Shown piece by piece: positions 7,696 to 11,457 of a stretch of DNA of 64,000 nt (its first letter is position 1; each line of letters starts with the position of its first letter). Made by a program: the position numbers and the translations under genes. The DNA comes from Calothrix sp. NIES-3974 (GTDB taxonomy: Bacteria > Cyanobacteriota > Cyanobacteriia > Cyanobacteriales > Nostocaceae), in contig NZ_AP018254.1 of assembly GCF_002368395.1 (NCBI RefSeq), positions 4,526,001 through 4,590,000 on the forward strand, in the 5' to 3' direction. The notes under the pieces were generated by a model, which ran no database searches, was not told the origin of the DNA, and saw nothing but the letters and a program-made list of their open reading frames with translations.

Positions 7696-8409
7696 ATGAA
7701 AAATTTTATTTACTGGTTGATGGGTGATAAAGCCGGGAGAACAATTGTTGGTACATGGAATTGGCTCTGGGGAAAACCGATAGAACAGGGTGGTAAACTA
7801 ACAGTTTCTATTGCCGAAGAATCTCTCAAAGAAATGCAAGAATCTGTACAGAAACTTGCTTCGGCCGTGGCTATGCAAATGGCTTCCTATGAAAAAGCCA
7901 AGAACAAATATGAGGAAAAAGTTGCAGAAATCAAACGACTCGAAGAAACTGTTGCGACTGCTAAAAAACTAGGTAACAATGATGCAGCCAGAGTTTCGAT
8001 GAGTAAAATAATTCAACTGGAAAATCTGTTGCCGCAACTAGAAGCACAGGTTAGGCAAGCAGAACAGTACGTTAATGCTTCTAAAGAAAAATTAAATCGA
8101 GAACGAATTAAATTGGAACAGTACAAGACGGAAATGGAAAACATGAAAGACTTGGCTGAAATCAATGAAGCTTTATCGACTATCGCCAAAGTGAATAACG
8201 AGTTTGATATTGGTTCTGCGCGATCGCAATTTGAGGAAGCTAAGAATGCTCTTCAAAATAAAAACCTGCGTCAAAATGCTTTAGCCGAATTATCTGAAAA
8301 TCCGGTAGAAAGAATGCAAGCGGAAATAGAACAATCCCAAATTGATGATGAGATTAATCGTCGCTTGCAAATGTTTGATGATTCTCAAACAAAAGAACTA
8401 CCTGAATAA
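7696..8409 (+). CDS. PspA/IM30-like coiled-coil protein
   Basis: A 237-aa, almost wholly alpha-helical, charged protein with heptad-like runs from about residue 45 to 175 (KEMQESVQKLASAVAMQMAS, later AQVRQAEQYVNASKEKLNRE). The general architecture matches PspA/IM30 (ESCRT-III-like membrane-remodelling) proteins, but the N-terminal 35 residues (FIYWLMGDKAGRTIVGTWNW) are hydrophobic and aromatic rather than the usual amphipathic helix. It is therefore a divergent paralogue rather than housekeeping Vipp1. Only 36 bp separate it from the next gene, a periplasmic-binding-type protein, so the two are probably cotranscribed. Role in membrane stress is an inference. Confidence 0.7.
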   Translation: MKNFIYWLMGDKAGRTIVGTWNWLWGKPIEQGGKLTVSIAEESLKEMQESVQKLASAVAMQMASYEKAKNKYEEKVAEIKRLEETVATAKKLGNNDAARVSMSKIIQLENLLPQLEAQVRQAEQYVNASKEKLNRERIKLEQYKTEMENMKDLAEINEALSTIAKVNNEFDIGSARSQFEEAKNALQNKNLRQNALAELSENPVERMQAEIEQSQIDDEINRRLQMFDDSQTKELPE

Positions 8410-8445
8410 ATTGAACTATAGCAAAATATTTCTTGGAAATTAATT

Positions 8446-9339
8446 ATGTCTAAATCTAGTGGTCCTCCTCCAATCGTATTTATTCTCATCTTGTTGGCAT
8501 TGTTAGGGGGTGGTTGGTGGTTTTTCTCCAAGCGAGATACTGGGTCACTTCCAGTAACTACTGCACCTGCTCCCAATTCTATCCCCGCTGGTAATATCAA
8601 TACTGCACCTGCTCCCAATTCTATCCCTGCTGGTACTAATATTCGGATTGATGGTTCTACCAGTATGGTGACAATTAATGAAAACATTAAAGCTGGATTT
8701 AGCAGTCAATATCCGGGTGTGAATGTGAATACCGCAGCAAGAGGAACCGATGCAGGAATTCAAGCCTTATTATCTGGTCAAATTGACATTGCAGCTATAT
8801 CCCGTCCGTTAACACCGACAGAAAAAGCTCAAGGACTAGTTGAAACACCGATTGCCATCGATGCCATTGCAATTGTAGTCGGTAGGAATAACCCTTTTAA
8901 TGGTAATTTGACTAGACAACAAGTCAGCGATATTTTCCAAGGAAAAATCAATACATGGTCAGCCGTTAACGGAAGTGGTGGTACAATCAAAGTCATTAAT
9001 CGTCCCTCCATTAGCGGAACCTATAAAACCTTTCAGGAATTAGTTCTCAATGGAGGTAACTTTGGTACAGGTGCAAATATTACTTCCTTGCCAACAGATG
9101 GTTCCACAATTTTATTTCAAGCTTTGGGAAATGATGGGATTGGTTATGCTACCTATGCTCAAGCTAGAGGCCAATCTACTGTTCGGGTTATTCCCATTGA
9201 TGGATTAAATCCTGATTCCCCTGCCTATCCCTACACTAGACAACTATACTACGCTTACAAAAATCCTGCCAGAACAGAAGTTCAGCAGTTTATGAATTAT
9301 GTCACCTCACCGGCAGGACAGCAAGCTTTAGCTCGATAA
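8446..9339 (+). CDS. membrane-anchored PstS-like substrate-binding protein
   Basis: 297 aa. An uncleaved-looking helix (IVFILILLALLGGGWWFFS, about 10-28) is followed by a short linker holding a 14-residue tandem duplication, APAPNSIPAG repeated twice, encoded by a 42-bp DNA repeat near 8557-8640. A type II periplasmic-binding domain follows: GSTSMVTINENIKAGF, ARGTDAGIQALLSGQIDIAAISR, DIFQGKINTW and GTYKTFQELVL are typical of phosphate-binding PstS/SphX-like proteins. No pstCAB genes are present, so transport may not be the role. Its partner in the presumed operon is the pspA-like gene, suggesting a sensor or envelope-stress function. Confidence 0.82.
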   Translation: MSKSSGPPPIVFILILLALLGGGWWFFSKRDTGSLPVTTAPAPNSIPAGNINTAPAPNSIPAGTNIRIDGSTSMVTINENIKAGFSSQYPGVNVNTAARGTDAGIQALLSGQIDIAAISRPLTPTEKAQGLVETPIAIDAIAIVVGRNNPFNGNLTRQQVSDIFQGKINTWSAVNGSGGTIKVINRPSISGTYKTFQELVLNGGNFGTGANITSLPTDGSTILFQALGNDGIGYATYAQARGQSTVRVIPIDGLNPDSPAYPYTRQLYYAYKNPARTEVQQFMNYVTSPAGQQALAR

Positions 9340-9531
9340 AAGTATTTTTCTGTAAAAAAATCGAATCATATGCGTCTCACAACCGTGGTCCCATCGCGAC
9401 TGCGGTTATTTTTTCATGCTGATGTAGTTAGCTCTGCCAATTTAGTACCTGTAAACGGGGATGAATCTGAGACAATAGACACAAGCGATAGATATATGGT
9501 TATTACCTTCAGGATATAGGTAGTCTCAAAA

Positions 9532-11457
9532 ATGGAAAGGTGGGAAATGGGGGAATTTGAATCACAGCCTAATTCTAATATTTCCGGTGACTCCTCGACC
9601 GAAACCGAGAATGCGCTACGGGTGTTGACCAGTGAATTGCAAAACCTGCAACGGAATTTACTGGAGTCTTTGCAAGCTGATGTGTCCCAACTACAGTCAG
9701 AAAAAGCTCGTCTGCATGACGATATCCGCAGATTACGTCAGGAAAGGGATGCTTTAATCGGGGAACAACATGCTTTAGTCCGACAGTTAGGACAGGTTTT
9801 AGCAAATCATATTTCTTCCAAGCTGGAGTCTTCCCTGGAGACCTTGTTTACTGTGGCAATGGAGCGGATTGATGCACGGGTTCCCAGTGTAGCCCCGACT
9901 CCCCCTCCAGAAATTGACGTGGAGGAGACCTTACAACCAATTCTACAATCTTTTCATCAAGCGATCGCTACTACTTTGACCCAAATCCAAGCTGATTTGG
10001 ATGATTACCACAGCGCCTTTTCCCAGCAACTAGGGCAAATGCAGGATGAACAAACGCGGGGTAAAGCAATTTTAAGCGAACTTGTCAACCGTCTGCGGTC
10101 TGAGTTGACAACAACATCTCCACCAATACATCCGATGGATATCGGGGGAAATGATGATGATGCTCCCCATGTGGAATTCGAGGAGACGGGTATTCCCCCA
10201 TTTAATCTGTTTGAGTCTGAGGATGAGGTATTGGAGTCATCAACCTCGGAGTATACTCCTGAGAGGGAGGTCGTGGCTAACGAGGTGACACCCCTGACTC
10301 CATCGGAATTATTTTCCCGTCCTTCCCCCAGCGCAACCGAAGACAATCTTCCCTCCCAAAATTCGCCGATGTATTTCCCCAGGGTGGAAGAGGAACCAAG
10401 TCACCCACCGACCCCTCCCCCAAAAAGCCAAAGTGGTTTGATGTTGGTGGGTTTATCGGCAATTTTTTCCGCACTCTACCATGTTGCCATTAAAGCAGTA
10501 TTTAATCCGCGATCGCAAATTTTGGGTGCATTCACCCTTGAGCAGTTAATGACACCGACTTTGGGTAATTGTTTGCTGATCCTAACTTTGCGGATGTTGG
10601 TGGTGGTTCCTTTGTTACTTGTATTAGCACCCATGATGCATATACGGGTATGGCACGATTTGCAGGTGTTATTTGATAGTTTTAAGTCACCTAGTCAGCG
10701 CCGTTACCCCGAAGCCAATGTCAACAAACGGATTGTAATTCTTTCGGTTGTGAGTGGAGGATTTTTATTTGTATCCCAAGTTCTGATATACTTTGCCATT
10801 AGCCAAATGCCCGTCGGTGTATCCATTGCCCTGTTTTTTGCCTACCCCATTGCCTCCGGACTGCTATCATGGTTGTTGCTGCAAGAGCGTTTTAGCCGCT
10901 TCCGTGTCACCGCGATCGCCACGATTTGTTTGGGTAATTTACTGGTTCTGACAAATCTGAATACAATCGCTAGTCCTGGAAATATTACCCTTGGCGGTTT
11001 GGCAGCCGTGTTTGCTGGTATCAGTTTTGCCATTAATATCTTATTTTCCCGGATTTGTGCCACTAGAGTTCATGCTATTTCCTATACCTTAATTAACTTC
11101 AGTACAATGCTCTTACTCGCATTAGCTAGTTGGCTGGTCTCCTTACCCTTGACCGGAGGAATTCAATCCAATGGCACTAAACTATTGGAAATTGTTCTGA
11201 GTGCCTTCGTCCTCGGTGTTCTCTCCGTCTGTGGCTATATTTTTAATTACTTTGGTATCCGTAAATTAGGCCCCACATCTGGCGCGATCGCAGGTGCAAC
11301 CGTCCCCGTCCTCACCGTATTTTTCGCCGGAATTATGATTCAAGAACAATTAACTCTTGTGCAAATTCTAGGTGTACTCATTGTCACCCTCGGTGTTGCT
11401 GGATTTAGCCTGGAAAAAATCCGTCACCGTCTTCGTCATCAACGAGCCATCAATTAA
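9532..11457 (+). CDS. coiled-coil protein fused to EamA/DMT-type transporter
   Basis: 641 aa. Residues about 20-190 form coiled coil (LQADVSQLQSEKARLHDDIR and downstream). Residues 190-300 are an acidic, Pro-rich linker. Residues about 300-632 contain around ten hydrophobic segments with two EamA-like halves (LSAIFSALYHVAIKAVF; later AGATVPVLTVFFAGIMIQEQ, LGVLIVTLGVAGF), as in the drug/metabolite transporter superfamily. Stand-alone DMT transporters are about 300 aa, so the N-terminal half is an extra soluble domain, probably cytoplasmic. A second start codon lies five codons downstream. The transported substrate is not inferable. Confidence 0.82.
   Translation: MERWEMGEFESQPNSNISGDSSTETENALRVLTSELQNLQRNLLESLQADVSQLQSEKARLHDDIRRLRQERDALIGEQHALVRQLGQVLANHISSKLESSLETLFTVAMERIDARVPSVAPTPPPEIDVEETLQPILQSFHQAIATTLTQIQADLDDYHSAFSQQLGQMQDEQTRGKAILSELVNRLRSELTTTSPPIHPMDIGGNDDDAPHVEFEETGIPPFNLFESEDEVLESSTSEYTPEREVVANEVTPLTPSELFSRPSPSATEDNLPSQNSPMYFPRVEEEPSHPPTPPPKSQSGLMLVGLSAIFSALYHVAIKAVFNPRSQILGAFTLEQLMTPTLGNCLLILTLRMLVVVPLLLVLAPMMHIRVWHDLQVLFDSFKSPSQRRYPEANVNKRIVILSVVSGGFLFVSQVLIYFAISQMPVGVSIALFFAYPIASGLLSWLLLQERFSRFRVTAIATICLGNLLVLTNLNTIASPGNITLGGLAAVFAGISFAINILFSRICATRVHAISYTLINFSTMLLLALASWLVSLPLTGGIQSNGTKLLEIVLSAFVLGVLSVCGYIFNYFGIRKLGPTSGAIAGATVPVLTVFFAGIMIQEQLTLVQILGVLIVTLGVAGFSLEKIRHRLRHQRAIN

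Follow-up and report, generated by a model that had tools for sequence, protein, structure and literature searches.

Bacterial ESCRT-III proteins (endosomal sorting complex required for transport III; for background see PMC8281802, PMC12358876 and PMC13051332) include PspA and Vipp1, and how they are targeted to particular membrane sites is largely open. The pertinent sections of a 2026 review put forward PspBC of E. coli and certain Vipp1 interactors as candidates; they describe cyanobacterial PspA and Vipp1 as binding to membranes with no intermediary (PMC13051332). The lipid anchor of both proteins is the amphipathic helix alpha-0, as described in parts of PMC12358876 and PMC13051332, and more than half of the cyanobacterial PspA proteins are encoded monocistronically according to a passage in a phage shock protein (PSP) survey (PMC9239133). 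In a different context, genes for extracytoplasmic function (ECF) sigma factors and DUF1822 proteins are placed near caspase-type systems in sections of PMC8195603. Here we analyse a two-gene locus in a 64,000-nucleotide stretch of Calothrix sp. NIES-3974 (contig NZ_AP018254.1 of 5,985,875 bases, positions 4,526,001 to 4,590,000; hereafter the window), consisting of a pspA-like gene followed by a gene for a membrane-anchored receptor with a PstS-like binding domain. Many cyanobacteria hold this little-noticed PspA variant, which is inherited with single-pass receptors whose outer domains vary while the membrane segment is constant. A first-pass annotation of the window knew of no described system of such composition; none was found in the main-text parts of two PSP surveys (PMC11237479, PMC9239133) or in the portions of the open-licence literature that were covered.

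Results

Conservation of the gene pair

The pspA-like gene (7696..8409, + strand, 237 aa) and the receptor gene (8446..9339, + strand, 297 aa; N-terminal tail, transmembrane (TM) helix, linker and PstS-like type-II binding domain) lie 36 bp apart (8410..8445), as annotated in the first pass, and both open reading frames (ORFs) are present on the same strand. Their spacing suggests that the two are cotranscribed. Our species scan, with a single genome per species over 84,980 species and a reach limited to close relatives, gave 51 loci, whose titles or genus names are all cyanobacterial. A separate receptor gene follows downstream on the same strand in 49 of these and an in-frame fusion is found in another (L075); the receptor thus adjoins the pspA-like gene in 50 of the 51 loci, well beyond chance. 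The median intergenic gap over this set is 10 bp, and three pairs overlap by 4 bp. The receptor frame of L057 is short.

As a second sample, 386 cyanobacterial genomes were drawn evenly, 37 of which carry a pspA-like gene. The receptor is linked to it in 32 of the 37 (22 PstS-type, nine type-I and one fusion), with two pairs in one genome (G333). The receptor gene of G047 is divergently transcribed, 21 bp from its pspA-like gene. No linked receptor is seen in G323, G216, G368 and G401, but receptors with the same TM segment are encoded at other sites of these genomes; in G368, where the contig stops 121 bp past the pspA-like gene, linkage cannot be judged. The adjacency on which the earlier proposal was allowed to stand or fall therefore recurs across genomes, and the homology to PspA profiles, its other point of vulnerability, holds as well.

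The natural fusion (L075) joins PspA residues 1-185, a TM segment that keeps the motif APPPIVFIL, and a binding domain. Its structure model shows a hairpin, a TM helix at residues 189-207 and the binding domain; the alignment used for the model contains receptor rows only, and its PspA part rests on one sequence. At L073 (6250-7334), a PspA-like hairpin and TM segment occupy one frame and PBP_like_2 an overlapping frame, which looks like a frameshifted hairpin-TM-binding-domain fusion.

A constant membrane segment below varying outer domains

The first-pass interpretation stands as regards a conserved two-gene unit with no adjoining pst-type transporter genes. The sensing or envelope-stress role that it suggested is conjectural. 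It is too narrow in taking the PstS-like domain as the defining partner: the constant part of the receptor is its membrane segment, GPPPIVFIL... (in the window GPPPIVFILILLALLGGGWWFF, residues 6-27, 8461..8526, + strand). P8, P9 and I10 (P7, P8 and I9 in profile numbering), at the start of the TM helix, are invariant in 24 aligned receptor N-termini, and from these N-termini we built a 32-residue TM profile (A1). At E<=1e-5, this profile matches 36 of the 386 genomes, all among the 37 with a pspA-like gene, and none of the 349 others; the co-occurrence counts were put to a Fisher test that ignores kinship. The Planktothrix plasmid, which was outside the training set, gives one full-profile match (E 1.1e-12), the receptor adjoining its pspA-like gene. 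Weak matches (E 0.003-0.009) occur in ten genomes that lack pspA-like; seven of the ten begin at model position 9 or later, and three (G191, G371, G261) reach the PPI columns. Between E 1e-5 and 1e-3, the sole additional genome is G036, in which the 386-genome searches found no pspA-like gene and no PstS-type relative; to judge from its sequence, G036 appears to have lost both genes of the pair together. The first 20 pspA-like codons are present in this genome (L217, 2971-3033), shortly before a frame that resembles an acyltransferase.

Two controls were run on the TM profile. In control 1, the PstS-like domain alone (E<=1e-35) was found in 91 of the 386 genomes, 58 of them without pspA-like. 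We inspected anchored PstS-like proteins from 19 of these 58, picked for short frames: PPI at the TM start is absent in 20 of 20, and the two regular-expression flags both fall in the linker past the TM segment. In control 2, a profile of the 17 PstS-type rows alone finds the receptors of L187 (E 1.4e-14), plasmid locus L239 (4e-12) and the propeller locus L186 (7.2e-9).

The outer domains joined to the TM segment are PBP_like_2, Peripla_BP_6 (a type-I binding domain) and, in L186, a PQQ_2 beta-propeller. The Peripla_BP_6 type occurs in L098, L134, L136, L140 (twice), L187-L190, L192, L194-L197 and L239, with TPR in some; in L193, PBP_like_2 stands behind a CxxC-rich tail that is zinc-ribbon-like by eye. 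On the pspA-like tree, the type-I label requires at least two changes. At least two TM-segment matches (E<=0.001) are present in 11 of 36 genomes, ten of which have one pspA-like match. One segment shared by unrelated outer domains, with several receptors per pspA-like gene, fits a shared docking partner and not mere operon inheritance. The N-terminus of the receptor is probably cytoplasmic: net charge over 89 receptors averages +1.57 before the TM segment and +0.65 after it, 50 of them favour N-inside, and in related architectures CHAT, kinase and PspA domains lie N-terminal of the outer domain.

An aromatic segment instead of helix alpha-0

Residues 1-28 of the PspA-like protein (MKNFIYWLMGDKAGRTIVGTWNWLWGKP, 7696..7779, + strand), which we name the docking segment, stand where alpha-0 would be. 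An aromatic N-terminus instead of an amphipathic helix had already been pointed out in the first pass, and residues 1-38 do lie outside the PF04012 match. The pattern in this segment is Y-W-L-M-G-x-x-A-G-R-x5-W-x-W-L-W-G-x-P; G10, W21, W23, L24, W25 and G26 are invariant in 17 aligned rows, and G10, W21, W23 and G26 in 39 aligned orthologues. It is net-positive, with means of 3.7 K/R and 1.0 D/E over 26 columns. A segment profile (E<=1e-14) matches 36 of the 386 genomes, again all among the 37 with a pspA-like gene, and leaves only G113 unreached. In that genome (L142), a 20-residue piece matching the docking segment lies ~3 kb off on the opposite strand, possibly through inversion or misassembly.

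We considered whether the segment is a tag of many proteins and dropped this idea, since the profile yields pspA-like genes, the G036 remnant, the G113 fragment and a few weak matches (E>=0.0028). Outside the 386-genome search, the docking segment was found on one kinase tail: a Ser/Thr kinase (L090 5292-6416, G022) carries it at its C-terminus, 393 bp upstream of pspA-like.

Family and fold of the PspA-like protein

The annotation as PspA-like is borne out by Pfam, in which PF04012 (PspA_IM30) matches residues 39-224 (7810..8367, + strand), spanning a helical hairpin and further helices, with 52.3 bits against a curated cut-off of 33.9. The same family is matched at E<=0.001 by 37 of the 39 members of the PspA-like set, and solved Vipp1/PspA chains are matched by sequence (best E 1.4e-5). 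An AlphaFold2 model from 39 aligned rows, with a mean predicted local distance difference test score (pLDDT) of 76.7, shows a long hairpin of helices and two more helices (33-91, 95-169, 172-199 and 203-229), a predicted ESCRT-III helical topology. The best 17 PDB matches of the predicted fold in Foldseek are all Vipp1 or PspA.

The same genome encodes canonical Vipp1 and PspA, which adjoin each other at a separate locus (L108 6752-8385), and identity between the PspA-like protein and canonical Vipp1/PspA is about 21-26%. In our tree, in which the outgroup branches are long, the 39 PspA-like rows split from the genome's Vipp1 and PspA with support of 100/100, and the closest relatives of the window protein are from Calothrix. 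The protein has no MGLF... alpha-0 and does not group with Vipp1/PspA. From these sequence comparisons, we assign this third PspA/IM30-family protein of the genome, beside its own Vipp1 and PspA, to a third, distinct PspA/IM30 subfamily within the bacterial ESCRT-III superfamily. A degenerate Vipp1 or PspA copy was also considered and rejected: this gene occurs in 20 of 142 genera, and both its docking segment and its core show conservation across 39 aligned rows.

The PstS-like domain of the window receptor

The receptor has one hydrophobic stretch, at its N-terminus, then a linker in which TAPAPNSIPAG occurs twice as a short duplication (residues 39-49 and 53-63; 8560..8634, + strand) and a PBP_like_2 (PstS-like) domain (PF12849, E 1e-41, residues 61-289; 8626..9312, + strand). 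The closest solved relative is 9l8j (Sll0540 of Synechocystis, E 1.5e-78), titled "putative phosphate-binding protein". When aligned with phosphate-bound 4gd5, the domain shows the SR (S119 R120) and SGT (S190 G191 T192) motifs, which we take to be the anion-site motifs known from PstS work; S119, S190, G191 and T192 are invariant and R120 nearly so in 22 aligned rows. The ligand of the PstS-like type may be an oxyanion such as phosphate.

Two pstSCAB operons are present at other sites of the same genome, and their PstS proteins score 314.6 and 295.3 bits with the PstS family model TIGR02136, above its cut-off of 206.6; the receptor scores 146.3 bits, below it. With this score, no pstCAB adjoining and other outer domains on the same TM segment, we dropped a role as Pst transport component. 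The same genome also encodes a 1578-aa protein with a PstS-like domain followed by many SGLDVNVDVPQT-type repeats (L103 6932-11668); the N-terminal domain of a 951-aa protein encoded in L102 resembles that of the 1578-aa protein.

Neighbouring genes

TonB, ExbB and ExbD are encoded upstream of the pair in the window and an EamA protein downstream; these are the neighbours scanned, in agreement with the earlier statement that the binding protein comes without pstCAB. The EamA protein (9532-11457, 641 aa) is a probable coiled coil joined to an EamA transporter domain. We did not find pspB, pspC or pspF among the six ORFs scanned, the pair included; farther regions were not searched. Terminator-like sites in the region are as numerous as in shuffled sequence, and one lies after the receptor gene at 9381-9407. 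CHAT, DUF1822 and sigma-70-type genes are absent within 6 kb of the pair in the window. PADLOC gave no match for the pair or for two CHAT-receptor proteins, and a known defence protein was dropped as a candidate on this result.

Neighbourhoods were compared over 81 loci, some of which perhaps represent the same species twice and many of which are cut by contig ends. A gene for a CHAT-TM-binding-domain protein lies within 6 kb in 19 of the 81, and BLAST places DUF1822 near all 19 and a small helix-turn-helix (HTH) gene near 13. In the five CHAT loci and one kinase locus that were scanned with Pfam, the receptor and the CHAT or kinase protein have outer domains of one class: PBP_like_2 in L045, and Peripla_BP_6 in L098, L134, L136 and L239 (CHAT) and L140 (kinase). 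An acyltransferase gene (PF01553 in L043, the one scanned) is located 0.9-2.2 kb downstream in 19 of the 81 loci. A plasmid of Planktothrix pseudagardhii (L239; NZ_LR882968.1, 42526-52993) holds a run of pspA-like, type-I receptor, small gene, sigma-70-annotated gene, DUF1822 and CHAT-Peripla_BP_6. The product of the sigma-70-annotated gene has no match in Pfam or NCBIfam, and a tyrosine recombinase gene adjoins the six-gene run.

Discussion

We favour, with moderate confidence, a receptor-linked bacterial ESCRT-III, in which the receptor TM segment recruits the PspA-like coat via the docking segment and the ligand state outside gates it; we are less confident of any given output. The PspA-like protein would form the cytoplasmic coat or filament of its family, a predicted polymer. 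Its docking segment, having replaced alpha-0, would pack against the GPPPIV TM segment of a single-pass receptor that is oriented with its N-terminus inside and its binding domain outside. Binding or loss of a ligand outside could then alter the state or clustering of the receptor, and so nucleate, position or release the coat; the result might be membrane remodelling or resealing, or the organising of signalling at that membrane. A single PspA-like protein could serve several receptors that have a common TM segment and differing outer domains. Such an arrangement suggests that outside signals may control the site of PspA-like assembly. For the CHAT/DUF1822 islands, one of them on a plasmid, we tentatively extend this proposal, although we expect it to fail there more often than to hold: the ligand-gated coat might seal or cut membranes as one arm of a defence or cell-fate response, and share a pathway with a caspase-like protease whose sensed ligand belongs to the same class. 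This extension rests on a minority of loci.

Several observations weigh against the favoured reading. No receptor lies within the 16.7-kb locus L039 (the rest of this genome was not searched), the pspA-like frames of L035, L079 and L078 and the receptor frame of L032 are interrupted, and L191 (G282) resembles a broken frame. The L075 fusion, from which the C-terminal part of PspA is missing, is known from a single draft genome. Nor is the TM motif absolute: the G175 receptor (KIPPILWF), although beside its pspA-like gene, is missed by the TM profile, the G143 receptor has PSPI, and G036, one of the 386 genomes, keeps a TM-segment receptor (E 5.2e-4) but has pspA-like only as a 20-codon remnant. 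The TM profile was trained on receptors that adjoin pspA-like genes, which is why the two controls were run, and the profile of the second also matches several Sll0540-type controls, by way of the later half of the TM segment (E 1e-4 to 1.6); the weakest type-I receptors reach only E 0.01-1.4 with it, so that it separates the types by the PPI half and not by E-value alone. The G113 pspA-like gene lacks the first 19 residues. The charge bias is reversed in nine and tied in 30 of the 89 receptors. Finally, the docking segment has a low pLDDT, under or close to 50, in the models of both the PspA-like protein and the fusion, and neither model shows a sign of contact between this segment and the TM segment.

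A lipid reading is one alternative. The aromatic, net-positive docking segment might simply bind lipid much as alpha-0 does, and the relevant part of PMC13051332 describes some ESCRT-III proteins whose N-terminal stretches are hydrophobic and positive, with predicted membrane binding; PPI would then aid TM insertion, and the co-inheritance would be operon inheritance without contact. The near-invariant W21, W23, W25, G10 and G26 look, in our judgement, stricter than lipid binding requires, and where receptors of unrelated outer domains are unlinked, the motif is kept only in the company of pspA-like or the G036 remnant (E<=0.001). We consider this account very unlikely. We also think it very unlikely that the locus serves phosphate handling, with an anchored capture protein like Sll0540 and a PspA-like protein that merely protects or organises the adjoining membrane. 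The closest solved relative and the retained anion-site motifs speak for such a role, as does a Nodularia paper, one table of which lists an Sll0540-like protein under inorganic phosphate transport (PMC3610870). However, no transporter gene other than EamA is found among the scanned neighbours of the pair and the genome has its two pstSCAB operons at other sites, unrelated outer domains occur on the same TM segment, and the Sll0540-type proteins from genomes without pspA-like are without PPI (20 of 20).

Scaffolding has more in its favour, and we consider it unlikely rather than remote. As an adaptor, the PspA-like polymer would cluster receptors with CHAT or kinase proteins into an array and remodel no membrane; CHAT genes within 6 kb in 19 of the 81 loci, the matching outer-domain classes in the five CHAT loci and one kinase locus scanned, and the G022 kinase that ends in a docking segment just upstream of pspA-like all agree with it. 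It sits less well with the 62 of 81 loci, many of them cut by contig ends and the window among them, that have no CHAT neighbour within 6 kb, with the predicted retention of ESCRT-III topology, and with the lipid-type acyltransferase gene downstream in 19 of 81 loci.

If the recruitment reading is correct, the recruitment and gating of bacterial ESCRT-III would gain a dedicated receptor family, with candidate contact residues on both sides that can be tested by point mutation. It would also offer a candidate function for anchored binding proteins that are perhaps annotated as components of ATP-binding cassette (ABC) transporters, as on the Planktothrix plasmid.

Among described systems, an SPFH-domain protein is reportedly linked to a PspA-family protein in B. 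subtilis. To our knowledge, none of the PspBC, Lia and SPFH partners combines a single membrane pass, an outer domain that binds a ligand and interchangeability of outer domains. In the passages concerned, PspBC of E. coli (PMC13051332) and the Lia system (PMC11237479) resemble our proposal in having membrane proteins that recruit PspA-family members or regulate them. Genes for a PspA-family protein and a solute-binding protein also lie close together in an operon of PspA/Snf7, AAA+ ATPase, ABC ATPase, permease and PBPB-OmpA, as given in part of PMC11237479; that transport operon is long and includes ATPases, whereas the present one has two genes, a TM-anchored receptor and no adjoining ABC transporter genes. 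The caspase, ECF sigma and DUF1822 neighbourhoods (PMC8195603) share with some of our pairs DUF1822, a small HTH gene (sigma-70-annotated in the plasmid) and CHAT, but the term PspA does not occur in the main text of that paper, and the window has no such genes within 6 kb. Anchored proteins of the Sll0540 type (9l8j) likewise combine a TM anchor with a binding domain; unlike the receptors, the 20 examined come from genomes without pspA-like and lack PPI at the TM start. The closest known relatives are Vipp1/IM30 and PspA, with which the PspA-like protein shares the core fold, the helix order, PF04012 and the structural matches, and from which it differs by a docking segment in place of alpha-0 and by its ties to single-pass receptors.

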